A stretch of 61,220 nt of DNA. Origin: an uncultured Burkholderiales bacterium (GTDB taxonomy: Bacteria; Pseudomonadota; Gammaproteobacteria; Burkholderiales; Casimicrobiaceae). Within the stretch, counting starts at the first letter, position 1; the number at the start of each line of letters is the position of its first letter. The translations under genes were made by a program, and so were the position numbers. The DNA is taken from contig CALDYQ010000003.1 in assembly GCA_937944385.1 (NCBI GenBank), forward strand, positions 1-61,220, read 5' to 3'. The notes under the pieces were generated by a model. That model was given only the letters and a program-made list of their open reading frames with translations, had not been told where the DNA came from and made no database searches. Of this stretch, positions 49,564-58,833 are shown one piece after another.

Positions 49564-51429
49564 ATGCCCACCCCTGTCCTTTGGCCCGACGAGGGCGCCT
49601 CCGAATCTGCCCCGATGAGCGCGCGCTACGGCGACCGCTATCACGCCGGTCGGCCGCTCGAGCAGGCGCGGTCCGTATTCCTCGCCGGGTGTGACCTCCC
49701 CGCAGCGTGGGCGGGACGACCGCGGTGGTGCATCCTCGAGACGGGGTTAGGCCTCGGCAGCAACTTCCTCGCCGCGTGGGCGGCCTGGCGGGCCGATCCG
49801 GTGCGTCCCGCGCGGCTCCGATATGTGGCCATAGAGGCACATCCCGTGGCGCGCGCCGATCTCGAGCGGCATCTTCGCGACGTCGTGGCCGCCGAGCCCG
49901 CGCTTGCTCCGTTCGCCGAAGCCCTCGCTTCTGCCTGGTGGGGCCTGAGCCCAGGCTTTCACCTCCTCGAGTTCGAAGGCGGGTGCGTGACGCTCACCCT
50001 CGCCGTGGGCGACGTGAGCCGCGCCCTCCCCCAGGTGATCGGGCGGTTCGACAGCGTCTTCCTCGACGGCTTTGCGCCGGCCAGGAATCCGGCCATGTGG
50101 TCACCGCCCGTACTGAGGACCATTGCGCAGCGCTGCACCCACGGGGCCCGTGCTGCGAGCTGGTGCGTGGCCGGGGCGGTGCGCCGAGCACTGGCCGAAG
50201 CGGGCTTTCGCGTGGAGCGCGCGAGGGGACTTCCGCCCAAGCGGGAGCGGCTCGTCGCGACCTTCGATCCGCCCTGGCGAGCACCTGCCGTGCCGCGCGC
50301 CGAGGCGCTCGAGGGAAAGACCGTGGCCATCGTCGGCGCGGGCCTGGCCGCTGCCGCGCTCGCCGAGGCGTTCGCCCGGCGCGGCGCAGCGCTCACCGTG
50401 ATCGGCGCCGCCGGGGCCCCAGCCGACGGTGCATCGGGCATCCCTGCTGGACTCATGGCGCCGCAGCACTCGCGCGACGAGTCGCTGATGACGCAGCTCA
50501 CCCGGAGCGGCATGCGCCTCACACTCGCCCGCTGCGAAGCCCTGCTCCGCGAAGGCGCAGACTACGCCGTGAGCGGCTGCCTGCAGCGCTTCGCCGCGCC
50601 ACACGGCTGGGCGCCACCGACGGCCGAATCGCTCGACTGGACCCGCGTAGCCACGGCCGGGGAGATCGCAACGAGCCACTGGGCAGGGATCGAAGCCGAG
50701 CATGCGCTATGGCATCCACGCGCGGCCTGGATCAGGCCGTCGGCACTCGTGGCCGCGCTACTCGACTGTGCGCGGGCACGATGCCTCTTCGGCCGTGCAG
50801 TCGCACGGATCGAGCCACCGCCGGTCACGGGCGAACACTGGACGCTCTACGATGATGCGGACCACATCATCGCCACAGCCGATCGGGTGATCGTCGCCGC
50901 CGGCCCGGAGACGCCGCGCTTCGTGCCGGGTCTCGACACGGTTCGGCCGGTGGCCGGTCAGCTCGCCTGGGCGATCACCGACCAACCGCTCGCGAAGGGC
51001 TCGCCGTGTAACGGCTTTGGGCACTGGCTACCCGACCTGCCCACGGCGGGGGGCTTCTTCTGGGTGCTCGGTAGCACCTACGAGCCCGGCACGACTCATC
51101 ATGAAGACGTCTGGGCTGGCTGGCTTACAGCAACGGGCGATCGCCCCCCGGCCGCGCAGGCGGCCCTTACCGAGGCACGCGCAGCGGGACGCCTCCAGCG
51201 CTTCCGTGGCCTACGCGCCGCGACCACCAATCGCATGCCGCGCGTGGGGACTGTGGCCGATGGTCCGCTTGCGGGGTTGGGGTATCTCACCGGCCTCGGT
51301 TCGCGTGGCCTATCGCTTGCGGTGCTCTGCGCCGAGGCGCTCGCCGCAGCGTGGAGCGACGAACCGCTCTCCGTACCCCGCTCGGCAGCGCGCCTGATGA
51401 CGCTGACCGCCGACGCTGGCCGCGCATGA
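49564..51429 (+). CDS. mnmC: Bifunctional tRNA 5-methylaminomethyl-2-thiouridine synthesis protein
   Basis: 621 aa. Finishes the wobble-uridine modification mnm5s2U34 in tRNA. The N-terminal methyltransferase (about 1-235) has LETGLGLGSNFLAAW and VFLDGFAPARNPAMWS. The C-terminal FAD oxidase (from about 255) starts TVAIVGAGLAAAALAEAFARR and has GLMAPQHSRDESLM and GLGSRGLSLAVL. Both halves are intact. The start taken is ATG at 49564; GTG at 49522 is in frame. It is divergent from iscR. Its stop overlaps the xdhC ATG. Confidence 0.94.
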   Translation: MPTPVLWPDEGASESAPMSARYGDRYHAGRPLEQARSVFLAGCDLPAAWAGRPRWCILETGLGLGSNFLAAWAAWRADPVRPARLRYVAIEAHPVARADLERHLRDVVAAEPALAPFAEALASAWWGLSPGFHLLEFEGGCVTLTLAVGDVSRALPQVIGRFDSVFLDGFAPARNPAMWSPPVLRTIAQRCTHGARAASWCVAGAVRRALAEAGFRVERARGLPPKRERLVATFDPPWRAPAVPRAEALEGKTVAIVGAGLAAAALAEAFARRGAALTVIGAAGAPADGASGIPAGLMAPQHSRDESLMTQLTRSGMRLTLARCEALLREGADYAVSGCLQRFAAPHGWAPPTAESLDWTRVATAGEIATSHWAGIEAEHALWHPRAAWIRPSALVAALLDCARARCLFGRAVARIEPPPVTGEHWTLYDDADHIIATADRVIVAAGPETPRFVPGLDTVRPVAGQLAWAITDQPLAKGSPCNGFGHWLPDLPTAGGFFWVLGSTYEPGTTHHEDVWAGWLTATGDRPPAAQAALTEARAAGRLQRFRGLRAATTNRMPRVGTVADGPLAGLGYLTGLGSRGLSLAVLCAEALAAAWSDEPLSVPRSAARLMTLTADAGRA

Positions 51430-52403
51430 GCCCCGCTGACATCGATCCCCTGCACCGTGTGCTCGACTGGCTGCGCGACGGCGCCGAGATTCAGCTCTTC
51501 ACGGTCACTGCGACTTGGGGCAGCGCACCGCGGCCGGTGGGTTCGTTCTTTGCCGTTCGCAGCGATGGCCAGGCCGTCGGCTCGGTCTCGGGCGGCTGCA
51601 TCGAGGACGACCTGATCCGACGTACGACGGACGGCGAGTTCACCGGAACACCGGTGGAGCGACTGCGCTACGGCGTCACCGCCGAGGCGGCGCAGCGATT
51701 CGGGCTGCCCTGCGGCGGCACGGTGGGGCTCGTTCGAGAATGGCTGAGCGTCGCCTCGGGCCGAGATGGCGGACTCCCGGCCGTGCTCAGGGCGATCGAG
51801 CGGCGGGAGCTCGTCGCCCGCGAGGTCGATCTCGCAAGCGGTGCGGTGTCGGTACGCCCGGCGTCTTCAGAAGAGTCGCTGTCGGTCGATGAGGCGCGGA
51901 TGATCACGGTGCATGGTCCACGCTGGAGGCTGCTACTGATCGGCGCCGGGGAACTGTCGTACTTCGTCGCGCAGTTTGCACTCGCGCTCGGCGACGAGCT
52001 CATCGTCTGCGATCCGCGCGCTGCCTACGACGATGCCTGGCGCGGCCTGTCGGCCGTCGCGCGGAGCCATGACATGCCGGACGATTGTGTGCGCGACCTC
52101 GCCCCGGATCGGCGGACTGCGGTCCTTGCACTTTCGCACGACCCGAAACTCGACGATCTCGCCCTGATCGAAGCGCTCTCCTCGGAGGCGTTCTATGTCG
52201 GTGCACTCGGCTCGCGAAAGACTGTCGCCGCCCGCCATGAGCGCCTGAGGGAATTCGGCCTGACAGAGGCACGACTCGCTCGCCTGCGTGGACCCGTAGG
52301 CCTCGACATCGGTGCGCGAACCACGGCCGAAATCGCGTTGGCGATCGTCGCCGAACTGACCGCGCTACGCCGTGGGATGAGGCTGCCCGGGTGCACGCCG
52401 TGA
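51426..52403 (+). CDS. XdhC/CoxF family molybdenum cofactor protein
   Basis: 325 aa. XdhC binds molybdopterin cofactor and supports its sulfuration and insertion into xanthine dehydrogenase-type enzymes. The N-terminal part has TVTATWGSAPRPVGSFFAV and GSVSGGCIEDDL, and the C-terminal part a Rossmann-like LLLIGAGELSYFVAQFAL and LSHDPKLDDLAL. No xanthine dehydrogenase gene is in the window. The nearest pterin enzyme is the AOR 2 kb away, on the other side of a MoeB-like gene. The start is ATG at 51426, overlapping the mnmC stop. It overlaps the convergent MoeB-like gene by 39 bases. Confidence 0.87.
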   Translation: MSPADIDPLHRVLDWLRDGAEIQLFTVTATWGSAPRPVGSFFAVRSDGQAVGSVSGGCIEDDLIRRTTDGEFTGTPVERLRYGVTAEAAQRFGLPCGGTVGLVREWLSVASGRDGGLPAVLRAIERRELVAREVDLASGAVSVRPASSEESLSVDEARMITVHGPRWRLLLIGAGELSYFVAQFALALGDELIVCDPRAAYDDAWRGLSAVARSHDMPDDCVRDLAPDRRTAVLALSHDPKLDDLALIEALSSEAFYVGALGSRKTVAARHERLREFGLTEARLARLRGPVGLDIGARTTAEIALAIVAELTALRRGMRLPGCTP

Positions 52404-53144
52404 GCCACACGCGGCGCAAGTCGCGCTGCGCGCGATCTCAACCGTGTGGAAGTCCATCCGCCGCGCATCGAGGACCAGGAGCCGGCCGACGAGCGGCTCG
52501 CCCGAGCCCGCGAGCAGCTTGATGGCCTCAGCCGCCTGGATCGTGCCCACGATGCCCACGAGCGGCGCAAAAACACCCATCACAGCGCAACGCTCTTCCT
52601 CGAAGCTCGCCTCCTCCGGGAACAGGCAGGCGTAGCAGGGCGAATCCTCGCGCCGGGGGTCGAACACGCTCACCTGCCCGTCCATGCGGACCGCCGCACC
52701 AAAGACGAGCGGCTTGCCCGCCTCGACACAGGCGCGGTTGATCGCGTGGCGGGTCGCGAAGCGATCAGTGCAGTCGATCACCACATCGGCTTCACCGACC
52801 AAGGCCGCGAGTCGCTCGCCCTCGAGCCGCTCGGCGAGCGGGACGATCTCGACCGTCGGGTTGATCGCCCGCATCCGGGCCGCGGCTGAGGCGACCTTCG
52901 GCTGCCCCACCGTGGTCGTGTCATGCGCGATCTGGCGCTGTAGGTTCGTGAGATCCACCGAGTCGTGATCCGCGATCGTGATACGGCCCACGCCGGCGCT
53001 TGCGAGATAGAGCGCGACTGGCGAGCCCAGCCCCCCGGCCCCGATCACGAGCGCATGCGCCTGCAAGAGCCGCGTCTGGCCCTCGATGCCGATTTCGTCG
53101 AGCAGAATGTGGCGCGAGTAGCGGGTGAGTTGGGTGTCGTCCAT
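52365..53144 (-). CDS. MoeB/ThiF/HesA-family sulfur-carrier adenylyltransferase
   Basis: 259 aa, E1-like. It adenylates the C-terminal Gly-Gly of a small sulfur carrier (MoaD or ThiS). Visible are SRHILLDEIGIEGQ, the nucleotide site GAGGLGSPVALYLA, DLTNLQRQIAH (Arg and Gln of the site), CTDRFATRHAIN, and two Zn pairs CYAC and CAAC. There is no rhodanese domain. Its partner could be the MoaD-like protein at 58242, or the general MoaD elsewhere. The start taken is ATG at 53144 (MDDTQLTRYSRH). Confidence 0.9.
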   Translation of the reverse strand: MDDTQLTRYSRHILLDEIGIEGQTRLLQAHALVIGAGGLGSPVALYLASAGVGRITIADHDSVDLTNLQRQIAHDTTTVGQPKVASAAARMRAINPTVEIVPLAERLEGERLAALVGEADVVIDCTDRFATRHAINRACVEAGKPLVFGAAVRMDGQVSVFDPRREDSPCYACLFPEEASFEEERCAVMGVFAPLVGIVGTIQAAEAIKLLAGSGEPLVGRLLVLDARRMDFHTVEIARSATCAACGSRRAPGQPHPTA

Positions 53145-53187
53145 CGGGCGATTTTGCGTCGGCGCAGCAACAATCCACGCCACACCG

Positions 53188-54330
53188 TCAGAGCGCGTCC
53201 TCGGGCGGCCGGGTGCCCAGCTTGCGATAGATCGTCGCCCGCGAGATGCCGAGCCGCTCAGCCGCGGCCTTGACGTTGCCGCGCAGCTCGCGCACCGTGC
53301 GGCGGATGAGGTCGACCTCGAGCGCCTTCAATGGCCGGCAAGAAACATCCTCTGGCAAGCTGGTTTTGCGGGCGCCGCCGTGCGGGTAGACCTCGGCACG
53401 CACCATCAGGCCGCTCCACAGCGGGAGCTCGGTCGCGCCCCGTCGCCCGGCGAGATCGAACAGCCGCTGCCACTTCATCGCGAAAACGTCCGCCAGATGC
53501 GCGCCATGAATGACAGCATCGCCCGGCGCCGGGGGCAATCCAAGCATGTCACAGGCCTCTCGGCTGAGCCCTGTGATGCAGCCTTCGCCGTCGGCCACGA
53601 GCCAACCGCGCGGGTGACCGTCCATGGCGAGGTCGGGCCAGTCGATGGCCAGGGCGATTGCATGCGGCTGCGCTAGGACGGCTCGCGTCTCGATCGCGCG
53701 CGCGGCGCTCGCCACGAGATGCCGGAGCGCCGGGCGCTCGGCGGCCATGATGCCCGTCAGATCGAGCATGCCCGCGAGGCGCCCGAGGCCGTCGTGAATC
53801 GGCGCACCGGCGCAGCTGTACACCGCAGTGTCATCGAAAAAATGCTCGCCCCGATGCAGCCAGACCGGACGGCATTCCGCAAGTGCCGTGCCGATGGCGG
53901 TGGTACCGACGCACTCCTCGGAGAGATCCACCCCGACGCGGGCGATGAGGTCGGCATGGCGGTCGGTGCGGTCGATCGGCCCATCCACGGCCACGACCAC
54001 ACCATCGCGATCGGTCAGGATGGCGAAGTAACCCGTGCTTTGCATCGTACGCCGCAGCCCGGCGATCACCGGTTCGGCCGCGGCGGTCAGCCTCTGCGCC
54101 CGCTCGCGCACGGCGCGCATCCGGGTCGCTGTCACCAAGTCGAACGACACCGGCGTGCCGGGCGACATGCCCCGAGCCACGCAGCGCCGCCACGAGGCGT
54201 CTACCCACGGCGCAAGCGTGGTCGGCAACTCCGTTCCATCGAGCAGTCGCCGCCGGGCCGCAGCGATGGCACGCTCTCGAAGATCGAGCTGCGTCGTGCG
54301 AGTGAGTGAAACGGCGGACAGCCCGCTCAT
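53188..54330 (-). CDS. AcoR-like regulator lacking the sigma-54 AAA+ domain
   Basis: 380 aa. Residues 60-250 hold a GAF-type sensor (FAILTDRDGVVVAVDGP, VGVDLSEECVGTTAIGTAL, HFFDDTAVYSCAGAPIHD), as in AcoR. A PAS-like segment follows (GWLVADGEGCITGLSREACDML). The last 40 or so residues are a Fis-type helix-turn-helix (NVKAAAERLGISRATIYRKLG). The central AAA+ domain of sigma-54 activators, with GAFTGA and Walker motifs, is absent, yet the frame is intact. The start is ATG at 54330 with GGGAGGA just before it. It is divergent from aorA, so it probably regulates AOR. Confidence 0.85.
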   Translation of the reverse strand: MSGLSAVSLTRTTQLDLRERAIAAARRRLLDGTELPTTLAPWVDASWRRCVARGMSPGTPVSFDLVTATRMRAVRERAQRLTAAAEPVIAGLRRTMQSTGYFAILTDRDGVVVAVDGPIDRTDRHADLIARVGVDLSEECVGTTAIGTALAECRPVWLHRGEHFFDDTAVYSCAGAPIHDGLGRLAGMLDLTGIMAAERPALRHLVASAARAIETRAVLAQPHAIALAIDWPDLAMDGHPRGWLVADGEGCITGLSREACDMLGLPPAPGDAVIHGAHLADVFAMKWQRLFDLAGRRGATELPLWSGLMVRAEVYPHGGARKTSLPEDVSCRPLKALEVDLIRRTVRELRGNVKAAAERLGISRATIYRKLGTRPPEDAL

Positions 54331-54527
54331 GCGATCCTCCCTGTTTTTTGTCTGACGTCGCAGCGCAGATTTTCCTATCGGCTCGACTGATCGAGGATGC
54401 CCCGTGTCGCAGTTTGAGAATGATTTCACGGCCTTCGGCGCGCTCCGGGTAAACCCTTACCTCGACGCCAGTGGGGATTTTCACAATGCGGCCGAGAGTT
54501 GACAACGAAACCCAAGGAGAGAGGCGA

Positions 54528-55004
54528 ATGCAAAAGGTCCTGCACATCGATGCCGGCAAATGCACCGGCTGCCTGCAGTGCGAAATGGCCTGTTCCTATG
54601 AGAACTATCAGGTCTTCGCACCTTCGAAGTCGCGCATCAAGGTGTTCGACTTCCACGCCACCGGAAAGAAAGTGCCCTACACCTGCACCCAGTGCGACGA
54701 GGCCTGGTGCCTGCATGCCTGCCCGGTCGAGGCGATCACCGTGGACAAGGCCACCGGGGCGAAGGTGGTGAGCGAGGCGACCTGCGTCGGCTGCAAGGTG
54801 TGCACGATCGCCTGCCCGTTCGGCACGGTGAACTACGTGCAGGAAACCGGCAAGGTGCAGAAGTGCGATCTCTGCGGCGGCGAGCCCGCCTGTACCGAAG
54901 CCTGCCCGACCGGCGCGATCACCTACATCGATGCCAACTGGACGGGTCTCGGACGCATGGCCGAGTGGGCCAACAAGCTCGGCAATCAGCCGGTAGCAAA
55001 CTGA
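54528..55004 (+). CDS. aorA: AOR electron-transfer subunit with four [4Fe-4S] sites
   Basis: 158 aa. A poly-ferredoxin with 16 cysteines in four groups: CTGCLQCEMAC, CTQCDEAWCLHACP, CVGCKVCTIACP and CDLCGGEPACTEACP. It would carry electrons from the tungsten subunit to the FAD subunit. The layout is that of AorA in Aromatoleum-type AOR and of HycB/DMSO reductase B-like proteins. The start is ATG at 54528, with AAGGAG nine bases before. aorB follows after 18 bases. The 197-bp gap to the divergent regulator holds no clear promoter that I can place. Confidence 0.92.
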   Translation: MQKVLHIDAGKCTGCLQCEMACSYENYQVFAPSKSRIKVFDFHATGKKVPYTCTQCDEAWCLHACPVEAITVDKATGAKVVSEATCVGCKVCTIACPFGTVNYVQETGKVQKCDLCGGEPACTEACPTGAITYIDANWTGLGRMAEWANKLGNQPVAN

Positions 55005-55022: not shown

Positions 55023-56870
55023 ATGGCATGGGCAGGAAAAATCCTTCGCGTCAACCTGACGGATGGCACCGTCAAGAGCGAAGCGCTCAACATGCAGTGG
55101 GCGCGCGACTATATCGGCTCGCGCGGCCTGGGCTCGAAGTACTTGGTCGAAGAGGTCGATGCGAAGGTCGACCCCCTCTCGCCGGAGAACAAGATCATCT
55201 GGGCCACCGGGCCGCTCACCGGCACGATGGCCTCGACCGGCGGCCGCTACACCGTCATCACCAAGAGTCCGCTCACCGGCGCCATCGCCTGCTCGAACTC
55301 CGGCGGCTACTGGGGCGCAGAGCTCAAGATGGCCGGCTGGGACATGATCATCTTCGAAGGCAAAAGCCCGAAGCCGGTCTACCTCTACGTCAATGACGAC
55401 GTGGCCGAACTGCGCGATGCAGCGCACCTCTGGGGCAAGAGCGTCTTCCAGACCGAGGAGATCATCAAGAAGACGCATCAGGACCCGCTGATGCGCATCT
55501 CCTCCATCGGCAAGGCGGGCGAGAATCAGGTGCTGTTCGCTGCCGTGGTCAATGATCTGCATCGCGCCGCAGGCCGCTCGGGTGTCGGAGCAGTCGCTGG
55601 ATCGAAAAACCTGAAGGCAATCGCCGTGCGCGGCACGAAAGGCGTGGGCAACATCCGCGACCCGAAGGCCTTCATGCAGGTCACCTTCGAGAAGAAGAAG
55701 ATCCTCGCCGAGAACGCGGTGACCGGACAGGGCTTGCCCGCCTACGGCACACAGGTGCTCATGAACGTGATCAACGAAGTCGGCGCCCTGCCGACGCGGA
55801 ATCACCGCGATGTCCAATTCGAAGGCGCCAAGGACATCTCCGCCGAGGCCATGAAGACGCCGCGCAAGACGGACGGCAAGACCCACCTCGTCACCAACCA
55901 AGCCTGCTTTGGCTGCACGATTGCATGCGGCCGCATCAGCAAGATCGACGAAACGCACTTCACGGTGGTCAACAAGCCCGAGTACTGGGGCGCCTCTGGA
56001 GGCCTCGAGTACGAGGCGGCATGGGCTTTGGGCGCAGCCAACGGCGTCAACGATCTCGAATGCCTGCAGTATGTCAACGTGCTCTGCAACGAAGAGGGCA
56101 TCGATCCGATTTCCTTCGGCGCCACGGTCGGCGCGGTGATGGAGCTCTACGAGCTCGGCGTGCTCACCAAGGAGCAGATCGGCATCGAGGCCCCGTTCGG
56201 ATCGGCGAAGGCACTTGCCTTCCTCGCCGAAGAGACGGTCAACGGCCGCGGCTTCGGCAAGGAAATCGGCCAGGGCGCCAAGCGCCTGACCGCCAAGTAC
56301 GGCCGTCCCGAACTCGCCATGCATTCGAAGGGCCAAGAATTCCCCGCCTACGACGGCCGCGCGATCCAGGGCATCGGCCTCGCCTATGCCACATCAAACC
56401 GCGGTGGCTGTCACCTGCGGGGCTACACGATCGCGAGCGAAGTGCTGGGCATTCCGGTGAAGACCGACCCGACCGAAAGCGAGGGCAAACCGGAACTGGT
56501 CAAGGCCTTCCAGGATGCGACTGCGGCGTTCGACTCTTCTGGGCTTTGCATCTTCACCAGCTTTGCCTGGAGCCTGCCCGACCTTGCGCCCCAGCTTGCG
56601 GCGGCCTGCGATGACGGCTACACGACCGAGGAATTGGCCAAGATCGGCGAGCGGATCTGGAACATGGAGCGCGACTTCAACAACCGCGCGGGATTCACGG
56701 CGAAGGACGACACGTTGCCCAAGCGCCTGCTCGAGGAGGCATGCAAAACGGGTCCCTCGAAAGGCAAGGTGAACGAACTGGCGAAGATGCTGCCGAAATA
56801 CTACGAGGTCCGTGGCTGGAATCCGGACGGCACGCTCAAGCCCGAGACACGCGCCCGCCTGGGGCTCTGA
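55023..56870 (+). CDS. aorB: Tungsten-dependent aldehyde:ferredoxin oxidoreductase catalytic subunit
   Basis: 615 aa, the usual AOR length. Oxidises aldehydes to acids at a tungsten bis-pterin site, possibly also the reverse with hydrogen or reduced ferredoxin. The [4Fe-4S] ligands are Cys295, Cys298, Cys302 (CFGCTIAC) and Cys509 (DSSGLCIF, the DxxGLC pterin motif). The N-terminal domain has GPLTGTMASTGGRY and SNSGGYWGAELKMAGWD. The HLRGYT segment carries the candidate active-site His. It is soluble and has no signal peptide, so it is cytoplasmic. The start is ATG at 55023 after GGGAAGGAG. The metal is inferred from the family. Confidence 0.95.
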   Translation: MAWAGKILRVNLTDGTVKSEALNMQWARDYIGSRGLGSKYLVEEVDAKVDPLSPENKIIWATGPLTGTMASTGGRYTVITKSPLTGAIACSNSGGYWGAELKMAGWDMIIFEGKSPKPVYLYVNDDVAELRDAAHLWGKSVFQTEEIIKKTHQDPLMRISSIGKAGENQVLFAAVVNDLHRAAGRSGVGAVAGSKNLKAIAVRGTKGVGNIRDPKAFMQVTFEKKKILAENAVTGQGLPAYGTQVLMNVINEVGALPTRNHRDVQFEGAKDISAEAMKTPRKTDGKTHLVTNQACFGCTIACGRISKIDETHFTVVNKPEYWGASGGLEYEAAWALGAANGVNDLECLQYVNVLCNEEGIDPISFGATVGAVMELYELGVLTKEQIGIEAPFGSAKALAFLAEETVNGRGFGKEIGQGAKRLTAKYGRPELAMHSKGQEFPAYDGRAIQGIGLAYATSNRGGCHLRGYTIASEVLGIPVKTDPTESEGKPELVKAFQDATAAFDSSGLCIFTSFAWSLPDLAPQLAAACDDGYTTEELAKIGERIWNMERDFNNRAGFTAKDDTLPKRLLEEACKTGPSKGKVNELAKMLPKYYEVRGWNPDGTLKPETRARLGL

Positions 56871-56923: not shown

Positions 56924-56957
56924 TGTGTCCCCTTCTGTTCCCGAAAGACGAACGAAC

Positions 56958-58235
56958 ATGACTCACCACGTGATACTCGGTGCCGGCCCGGCCGGTGTGA
57001 TCGCCGCAGAGACGATCCGCAAGCATGCGCCGCAAGATGCGATCACGATCGTCGGCGATGAACCCGAGCCGCCCTATTCGCGGATGGCGATTCCCTACCT
57101 GCTCGCGGGCAATATCGCCGAAGCGGGCACGCACCTGCGCCATGCGCCTGATCATTTCGAGCGGCAGCGCATCACCGTTCGCCGCGGTCGCGCGGTGTCG
57201 ATCGACACCGTAGAACGCGAGGTCGCGCTCGAGGGGGGCGAGCGGCTCGGTTTCGACCGGCTGTTGATCGCAACCGGATCGCGGCCAGTCAAGCCGCCCG
57301 TGCCCGGCATAGACAGCCCCGGCGTGCACACCTGCTGGACGCTCGATGATGCGCGCCACATCATGCAACTCGCCACGAAGGGCGCGCGCGTGCTCCAGAT
57401 GGGGGCGGGCTTCATCGGCTGCATCATCATGGAGGCGCTCGCCACACGCGGCGTCAAGCTCACGGTCGTCGAGATGGGCGACCGCATGGTGCCGCGCATG
57501 ATGGGCCCGACCGCGGGCGGCATGATCAAGGCGTGGTGCGAATCGAAGGGCATCACCGTGCGCACCGGCGCCCGCGTCGAGGCGATCGAAGCCGAGGCCC
57601 CGCTCTCGGCGCGGCTGTCGACCGGCGAGCGCGTCGCGGCCGATCTCGTGATCAATGCAACCGGCGTCAAGCCGGCCATCGGCTTTCTGGAAGGTTCGGT
57701 TATCGCCCTTGGAGTCGGTGTGCTCACCGATGCACGCATGCAGACGAACGTTCCGGGCATCTATGCCGCAGGCGACTGTGCCGAGGCGTTCGATGCACTC
57801 ACCGGCAAGACGGTCGTCTCCGCGATTCAGCCCAACGCTGCCGAACAGGCGCGCATCGCAGCGCTCAACATGGTCGGGCAGTGCGCAAGCCTGCGTCAGG
57901 TCACACAAATCAACGTGCTCGACACGCTCGGCATGATCTCGACGTCGTTCGGCAACTGGCAAGGTGTCACCGGTGGCGAGCACGTCGAACTGACCGACGA
58001 AACCCTCGGGCGCCATCTCAGCCTGCAGTTCAAGGACGACGTCCTGATCGGCGCCAACAGCGTCGGGTGGACCGACCAGGTGGGCGTGCTTCGCGGTCTG
58101 GTCGAAGGGCGTGTCCATCTGGGTCCATGGAAAGACGAGCTTCTGCGCGATCCGACGCTGCTCTCGAAAGCCTACCTCGGCGCGGCACAAGCCCAGGGGC
58201 AATGGGTCAGCGCCGCTGATGCACGACGTCGCTGA
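56958..58235 (+). CDS. aorC: AOR FAD/NAD(P)-binding subunit
   Basis: 425 aa, pyridine nucleotide-disulfide oxidoreductase fold. The FAD motif HVILGAGPAGVIAAETIRK opens the protein. A second Rossmann motif VLQMGAGFIGCIIMEALA for NAD starts near 150, and GIYAAGDCAEAFD closes the FAD site near 265. It would transfer electrons from AorA to NAD+ in the Aromatoleum-type AOR complex. The C-terminal 130 residues are a dimerisation-like domain. The start is ATG at 56958. It is six bases before the MoaD-like gene. Confidence 0.9.
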   Translation: MTHHVILGAGPAGVIAAETIRKHAPQDAITIVGDEPEPPYSRMAIPYLLAGNIAEAGTHLRHAPDHFERQRITVRRGRAVSIDTVEREVALEGGERLGFDRLLIATGSRPVKPPVPGIDSPGVHTCWTLDDARHIMQLATKGARVLQMGAGFIGCIIMEALATRGVKLTVVEMGDRMVPRMMGPTAGGMIKAWCESKGITVRTGARVEAIEAEAPLSARLSTGERVAADLVINATGVKPAIGFLEGSVIALGVGVLTDARMQTNVPGIYAAGDCAEAFDALTGKTVVSAIQPNAAEQARIAALNMVGQCASLRQVTQINVLDTLGMISTSFGNWQGVTGGEHVELTDETLGRHLSLQFKDDVLIGANSVGWTDQVGVLRGLVEGRVHLGPWKDELLRDPTLLSKAYLGAAQAQGQWVSAADARRR

Positions 58236-58241
58236 GAGCGC

Positions 58242-58496
58242 ATGAAGATCACGCTCAAACTCTTTGCTTCGCTCACCGACTGGCTTCCTCCCGAGGCCCG
58301 TCGGGAAAATCAGGTCGCGCTCGACTACGACAGTGCGCCGACCGTGAGCGAAGTCATCGAGCGCTTCGCCCTACCGCCGAAGTCGGTGCACCTCGTGCTC
58401 GTCAACGGCGCGTTCATTACGCCGGACATGCGGTCCAATCACCGACTCGCAGACGGCGACGTGCTCGCGATCTGGCCGCCGATCGCCGGTGGCTGA
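58242..58496 (+). CDS. MoaD/ThiS-family sulfur carrier protein
   Basis: 84 aa, beta-grasp fold. It ends IAGG, with the Gly-Gly tail that is adenylated and turned into a thiocarboxylate to give sulfur to molybdopterin or another cofactor. The body (MKITLKLFASLTDWLP, VNGAFITPDMRSNHRLADGD) resembles MoaD. Its place after aorC suggests it serves the AOR cofactor. The start is ATG at 58242, and the next gene begins seven bases before its end. Confidence 0.9.
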   Translation: MKITLKLFASLTDWLPPEARRENQVALDYDSAPTVSEVIERFALPPKSVHLVLVNGAFITPDMRSNHRLADGDVLAIWPPIAGG

Positions 58497-58833
58497 TTCA
58501 ACGAACGGCCGCCCGCCATCGGCACCGCCCGAACGCTTTACGCGCCTGATGACCATCACCGAGGCCGAGTGGCTTCGCTCGCTGCCCGGGGCGGTCGCCG
58601 GGCACGCGCTCAGCATCGAAGGCCGCTCTGCGCGCATCACGATTTCCAACGCTGGCAACGCAGCGCCGCCTCGTTCGCTCCACATCACGTGGTCCCCGGC
58701 CATCGATCTGGTCCTCGGGTCTATTCGACTCGCCCGCCTTCAGGTCGCATTCGATCTGACTTCGATTCCGCCCGAAACACGCACGGCGTTCATGCGAGGC
58801 TTCGATCTGCACATGCAGCGCGGCGGCGGCTGA
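58489..58833 (+). CDS. Hypothetical protein, last gene of the AOR cluster
   Basis: 114 aa. I do not recognise the family. The start is GTG at 58489, overlapping the MoaD-like stop, so translation is coupled. It is a cytoplasmic protein with no signal or membrane segment. The middle (EAEWLRSLPGAVAGHAL) and C-terminal part (LGSIRLARLQVAFDLT) look folded. It ends with QRGGG, a terminal triple Gly next to a gene whose product ends in GG. No cysteine or metal motif is visible. Position alone suggests a role with AOR. Confidence 0.7.
   Translation: MADSTNGRPPSAPPERFTRLMTITEAEWLRSLPGAVAGHALSIEGRSARITISNAGNAAPPRSLHITWSPAIDLVLGSIRLARLQVAFDLTSIPPETRTAFMRGFDLHMQRGGG

Follow-up and report, generated by a model that had tools for sequence, protein, structure and literature searches.

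Can a regulator related to the sigma-54 activators, and devoid of their AAA+ module, control the operon that it faces, and by which route? The question is raised by a locus in a 61,220-nucleotide stretch of DNA (the window) from an uncultured Burkholderiales bacterium of the Casimicrobiaceae (assembly GCA_937944385.1, contig CALDYQ010000003.1, positions 1 to 61,220), in which a short regulator gene faces aorABCD, a three-subunit aldehyde oxidoreductase (AOR) operon on the opposite strand. A first-pass annotation had described an AcoR-like protein acting on the gap at 54331-54527 as a repressor or a sigma-70 activator; the range that it gave for the regulator locus, 53188-55004, also covers aorA. 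The features of the locus are as follows.

53188..54330, minus strand: DhaR/AcoR-type regulator without AAA+, with an intact open reading frame of 380 aa from ATG; GAF at residues 82-210, PAS-like module at about 225-316, HTH_8 at 334-371 (Pfam, DhaR profile and structural model)
54336..54342, minus strand: ribosome site of the regulator, AGGGAGG, read from the sequence
54405..54421, plus strand: operator TGTCGCAGTTTGAGAAT, predicted site of the regulator from motif conservation and co-occurrence, centre 54413, about -81
54446..54457, plus strand: second box CGGGTAAACCCT, conserved, family form AGGG-N4-CCCT, centre about -42.5
54482..54487, plus strand: -10-like CACAAT (conserved ACAAT), with a putative transcript start near 54494
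54514..54521, plus strand: ribosome site of aorA, AAGGAGAG, from the sequence
54528..55004, plus strand: aorA, four-cluster Fe-S subunit, from its reading frame and family matches
55023..56870, plus strand: aorB, large subunit of the tungsten aldehyde oxidoreductase (AFOR_N, AFOR_C)
56952..58235, plus strand: aorC, FAD/NAD subunit, from family matches
58242..58496, plus strand: aorD, MoaD/ThiS-like, from family matches
58489..58833, plus strand: orfE, without a family match, with a counterpart 3' of aorD in many aor loci

The domains of the regulator were analyzed in the first place. In Pfam, GAF (82-210) and HTH_8 (334-371) scored 31.8 and 38.8 bits against cut-offs of 22.4 and 22, respectively, and neither Sigma54_activat nor any other AAA model was found at E<=0.1, so that the retention of GAF and a Fis-type HTH and the absence of AAA+, claimed in the first-pass annotation, were borne out. 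A receiver family was absent from the Pfam matches. The annotation had overlooked a PAS-like module between GAF and HTH, which Pfam detected weakly, below its own cut-off, at 240-267. When 45 members of the family were scanned (the window protein and 44 of the 84 relatives described below), HTH_8 was detected in 45/45, GAF in 42/45 and PAS_4 in 29/45, and Sigma54_activat was not among the 22 Pfam families matched (E<=0.01). The PAS-like part is assigned from these weak PAS_4 matches and the DhaR profile match, and was modelled within the whole protein.

The nearest named family was DhaR (NCBIfam, residues 37-265, corresponding to the front part of DhaR). The GAF domain is of AcoR/DhaR type, and DhaR is a nearer named relative than AcoR. 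The AlphaFold model, based on 45 family members, reached a pLDDT of 87.6 and a pTM of 0.85. Because E. coli DhaR(N) was the top PDB match by sequence profile (E 5.8e-9), Foldseek and VIA-align (Z 26.0 over 186 residues at 2.3 A, model residues 40-227, a comparison that mainly tests residues 69-223), the regulator is the sensor half of a DhaR-type activator fused to the Fis HTH of the family. DhaR, the activator of the E. coli dihydroxyacetone kinase operon, has the same GAF and PAS sensor half and a Fis-type HTH; by contrast, the NCBIfam DhaR model spans a sigma-54-type AAA+ region that is absent here, and no dha genes were found at the window locus.

As had been noted earlier, the frame of 380 aa is intact and a ribosome site precedes it. 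A truncation or frameshift artefact was ruled out, given that all the 84 relatives recovered (80 loci from a genome scan and four from whole-genome searches) are also intact and short, 360-399 aa, although these lengths are approximate, since start codons were assigned by a rule of thumb that gave no proper start for L039, L064, L084 and L096; nor are the family counts independent events, as L104 and L106 belong to one strain and many loci to Variovorax. The window regulator itself combines full-length homology, a short intact frame and an operator in front of an enzyme operon. It thus seems to be a simplified switch that still works, not the remnant of a damaged gene, and the earlier proposal of a functional short form gained support from the 84 short, intact relatives and from the conserved operator that tracks the regulator.

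The GAFTGA pattern was present in 30/30 full-length relatives and in 0/9 divergent short rows; in the window regulator it is missing because there is no AAA+ region to hold it. The class is patchy within the order, since a full-length match with at least 44% identity was obtained in only 4 of 200 sampled genomes, that of the window included. In a tree of 101 rows, which took in the window and 62/84 short rows (near copies among the non-aor rows being removed), the 63 rows of the main short family grouped in a single clade (SH-aLRT 99), separate from the full-length relatives, and more distant short forms were placed elsewhere. One of these, L181, from the same family as the window's genome, nested among full-length rows with a support of 82, so the loss of AAA+ may have been repeated in evolution. 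More remote GAF/HTH relatives that are short (342-420 aa) and lack GAFTGA were observed at L176, L177, L178, L179, L180, L181, L182 and L183.

The search for regulators of the same type beside aor operons, proposed in the first-pass annotation, gave 21 of the 84 relatives divergent from aorA. A further 55 were divergent from coxS-coxL, encoding a coxSL-type molybdenum hydroxylase, four followed a cox..xdhC operon in the same orientation, and four had other settings. One regulator family therefore faces non-homologous tungsten or molybdenum enzymes. As more relatives face cox than aor, a regulator exclusive to AOR was ruled out, and so was a short regulator as a general feature of aor, being beside or near aor in 3/34 loci of the order (L141-L174, the window's own excluded). 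The CoxL-like protein carries molybdenum-cofactor domains and scored below the cut-offs for both carbon monoxide dehydrogenase (675.6 vs 991.15) and glyceraldehyde dehydrogenase (646.9 vs 790). Since the label 'aor-linked' needs at least three changes on well supported branches of the tree, the regulator has switched enzyme partner more than once.

The divergent gaps were then compared. In 22 aligned aor gaps, the operator GTGTYTCAnTTTGAGAAT was followed by AGGG-N4-CCCT, AACAAT and a ribosome site. The same order was found in 55 cox gaps, with variation of single elements, and the operator consensus across the family gaps was TGTYTCAnTTTGAGAAT. The core TCTCAAnTTGAGA was detected with up to two mismatches in 22/22 aor gaps, where shuffles would give 0.12. 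Among the cox gaps, 37/55 had it with two mismatches, 14 with three and 4 with four, the values expected by shuffling being 0.12, 1.8 and 13.4; the 18/55 sites with three or four mismatches to the symmetric core count against the reading preferred below. The gap at 54331-54527 thus holds a conserved operator tracking the regulator, in agreement with the predicted action on it.

The spacing of these elements was measured in 71 gaps (19/22 aor and 52/55 cox; 6/77 were dropped because a site touched an end). The distance from operator to box was 38.5-40.5 in 69/71, the other two (27.5 and 28.5) being about one helical turn shorter, and that from box to -10-like site was 24-25 in 66/71, although the picking of box and -10-like site as the best match within a distance range favours regular-looking spacing. 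The window gap showed 38.5 and 24, respectively. Taking CACAAT (54482-54487) as the -10 would set the box at -42.5, the operator at about -81 and the transcript start near 54494. The -10-like hexamers, that of the window among them, are poor matches, which weighs against the reading preferred below. No -35 was recognised, since the window position matches TTGACA at 1/6 bases and the family did no better than shuffles; such a lack fits a promoter that depends on an activator. Some aor operons that have no short regulator (L144, L173) carry the second box as well, which also weighs against that reading, so this element is not the regulator's own and its binder is probably another protein. A strict pattern of box and -10 gave seven matches in seven genomes, of which three were known aor promoters; the window's own promoter does not fit it.

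Sigma-54 would be available in the window genome, as it encodes RpoN and six strong AAA+ activator domains. Nevertheless, a conserved sigma-54 promoter in the family gaps was rejected: -24/-12 sites with up to two mismatches were found in 0/22 aor and 1/55 cox gaps, about the level of shuffles. In the window gap the best match on the forward strand has five mismatches; no well-spaced sigma-54 promoter of aorA was found, in agreement with the independence from sigma-54 that had been proposed from the missing AAA+ module. On the regulator's own strand, 6/22 aor gaps have a sigma-54-like site at two mismatches. Since AAA+ (PF00158), GAFTGA and a -24/-12 promoter at the target are missing, the regulator is not a bEBP, even though it has the GAF sensor, the fold match to DhaR(N) and HTH_8.

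Operons near a full-length relative may be under sigma-54 control. Their best sites had one mismatch in L152 (aor) and three in L225 (cox, from the window's genus), but four and five in L155 and L144, and this contrast, resting on four loci, is only suggestive. Good sigma-54-like sites also precede aor operons without a full-length neighbour (L174, one mismatch; L157, two), and sigma-54 may drive aor in another lineage, family f48. The aor sites of L157, L161 and L174 from this family read TGGYACGATCCTTGC in two and ATGGCACGCTATTTGCA in L174.

Whether the operator belongs to the regulator was analyzed from their co-occurrence. Taking aor and coxS together, the operator was present in 4/4 sampled enzyme operons with the regulator and in 0/58 without it. 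Among the 34 aor loci of the order, 32 were scored, two lacking an aorA start: the operator was found in 3/3 with the short regulator (2-3 mismatches) and in 0/29 without it (fewest, four), including two loci of the window's own genus (L141, L142). For coxS, 30 loci were used (those that matched best among 49 genomes in which coxS was found), and the operator was present in 1/1 with the regulator and 0/29 without it. Of the four positives, however, three (L145, L148, L211) also belong to the set that defined the motif.

Three loci from outside that set, L143, L190 and L196, show that the operator stays with the enzyme operon when the regulator gene sits elsewhere. In L143 it precedes aorA although the regulator lies about 3 kb away; in Ramlibacter sp. 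WS9 (L190), where the regulator does not adjoin cox, coxS is preceded elsewhere in the genome by operator, box and ACAAT; and in Hydrogenophaga sp. 2FB (L196) the operator precedes coxS with a regulator that is not divergent. Conversely, the stretches upstream of non-divergent regulators contained no site (6-8 mismatches in L041, L043, L048, L050 and L051; seven in L002). The window genome has one exact operator match. Eight other genomes gave 13 matches with at most one mismatch, eight at aor or cox promoters and five elsewhere, and all six exact ones were at an aor or cox promoter. Ramlibacter aquaticus (L055) has operator-like sites with 2-3 mismatches at 2988 and about 7930, preceding genes for a PQQ alcohol dehydrogenase and a TonB receptor; box and AACAAT are in place at the TonB receptor gene site.

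The reading that we prefer, with a probability of about 0.6, is that of an activator which does not need sigma-54, probably works with sigma-70, binds near -81 and serves a single operon. The regulator would be a one-component transcription factor sharing ancestry with the DhaR/AcoR-type sigma-54 activators, in which the AAA+ module is absent and the Fis HTH is attached to GAF and PAS. Probably as a dimer, it would bind the single operator TGTYTCAnTTTGAGAAT of the aorA promoter and activate transcription by a sigma-70-type polymerase, with the cooperation of a second factor at the AGGG-N4-CCCT box. The gene company of the family suggests that the sensor half responds to an aldehyde handled by AOR, or to its alcohol or acid. 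The layout fits an activator that binds well upstream, in constant helical phase with the second box, where the promoter has no -35.

Of the two actions proposed in the first-pass annotation, the sigma-70 activator is thus favoured by the operator position and the rigid spacing, and the repressor is less likely. A repressor would shut aorA, or its own gene, from the same operator until an aldehyde released it. Repression is common among one-component regulators whose genes are divergent from their target, and the operator lies between both genes in 76/84 loci. However, it is situated about 70 bp ahead of the -10 that we predict and leaves it uncovered, its helical spacing from the second box is constant and the promoter has no -35; we consider repression unlikely. 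As the own genes of the non-divergent regulators named above lack the operator, autorepression is not the conserved role.

A metal switch, in which the signal would be tungstate, molybdate or the supply of cofactor in place of an organic substrate, is quite unlikely. Both enzyme types need a metal-pterin cofactor, and TupA or ModE genes were found in 11/21 aor-linked and 24/55 cox-divergent loci. Against this, the two enzymes use different metals, R. aquaticus has operator-like sites in front of a PQQ alcohol dehydrogenase gene, a ModE-like repeat is present as a distinct element in some aor leaders, and ExaC or DUF779 lies beside some members (3/21 aor-linked, 1/4 cox-codirectional and 1/4 other loci; L041 is adjoined by DUF779 and an ExaC acetaldehyde dehydrogenase scoring 951 vs a cut-off of 900).

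A third protein might own the operator and merely co-occur with the regulator, whose binding to it is a prediction, and the second box does imply another factor, probably; yet the co-occurrence of 4/4 vs 0/58, and an operator that follows the enzyme where the regulator gene sits elsewhere, make this improbable. That the short protein acts as a helper, mixing with or competing against an AAA+ paralogue and working still through sigma-54, is very improbable: six Hydrogenophaga-type loci (L031-L035, L037) do have a full-length relative at 1.7-2.0 kb on the downstream side, but no other protein of the window genome matched the regulator at E<=0.001 and the family promoters have no sigma-54 site.

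For the sigma-70 activator, a known parallel is offered by RegA/PrrA/ActR, in which a sensor-type front is set on a Fis HTH with no AAA+ and which act with sigma-70 RNA polymerase. Their front is a receiver domain, for which the window protein has no Pfam match, and by this analogy the regulator might work like a one-component counterpart of the short Fis regulators of RegA/PrrA type.

The nearest published idea is AorR of Clostridiales, a predicted regulator of the aor-moaD operons of Clostridium and Geosporobacter; there, it is a predicted sigma-54 activator with AAA+ and sigma-54 promoters, and its site type, TGT-N10-12-ACA, resembles the family operator (PMC6615313). The aorABCDE operon of Aromatoleum aromaticum has the same order and the same subunits aorA, aorB, aorC and aorD, and the words regulator, promoter and transcription are absent from the main text of that article, to which the statement is limited (PMC6365974). 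The main text of PMC13328260 contains no word beginning with regulator. In the open-licence literature, covered mostly at the level of listings, no description of a betaproteobacterial aor regulator or of the short class was recognised.

The finding is wider than first noted: a short class with its own operator is common to tungsten and molybdenum enzymes. The first-pass annotation had overlooked the operator, the second box and the facing of a non-homologous molybdenum enzyme by the family. More tentatively, relatives of sigma-54 activators in Burkholderiales may have dropped the AAA+ motor and become sigma-70 activators that kept sensor and DNA reading, one such regulator with one portable promoter module (operator, AGGG-N4-CCCT box and -10) being passed between non-homologous enzymes that share a chemistry, namely the tungsten AOR, the molybdenum hydroxylase and, in the single genome of R. 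aquaticus, the PQQ alcohol dehydrogenase.

If so, the module would mark aldehyde-responsive operons, including those of CO dehydrogenase-like molybdenum hydroxylases, and point to their substrate; the shared operator would predict that the CoxL-like hydroxylase of Variovorax and its kin does the job of the tungsten AOR. It would also be a natural case of a motor-driven sigma-54 activator turned into an ordinary one, and a caution against assuming sigma-54 dependence for every Fis-family GAF regulator. Operator and promoter sequences of the short class would be ready to test, and mesophilic tungsten enzymes would gain a regulator to study.

Additionally, several minor observations were made. 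TupA, the tungstate-binding protein, was not found in the window genome (G000) despite the tungsten AOR encoded there. An XdhC-like gene and a ThiF-family gene (51351-53147) adjoin the regulator; in a genome of the same genus (G258, L141) no regulator or operator lies between thiF and aorA, and the order xdhC-thiF-aorA is the same. An inverted repeat of the form GCTATG-N10-CATAGC, which we take to resemble a ModE-type metal site, was detected 3' of the -10-like site and ahead of aorA, with up to two mismatches, in 7/22 aor gaps (L032, L037, L038, L049, L059, L003 and L145) and in 0/22 shuffles, with one shuffle for each gap; it is absent from the window and complete in L144. Finally, the aorB match of L173 (G360) has three in-frame TGA codons.
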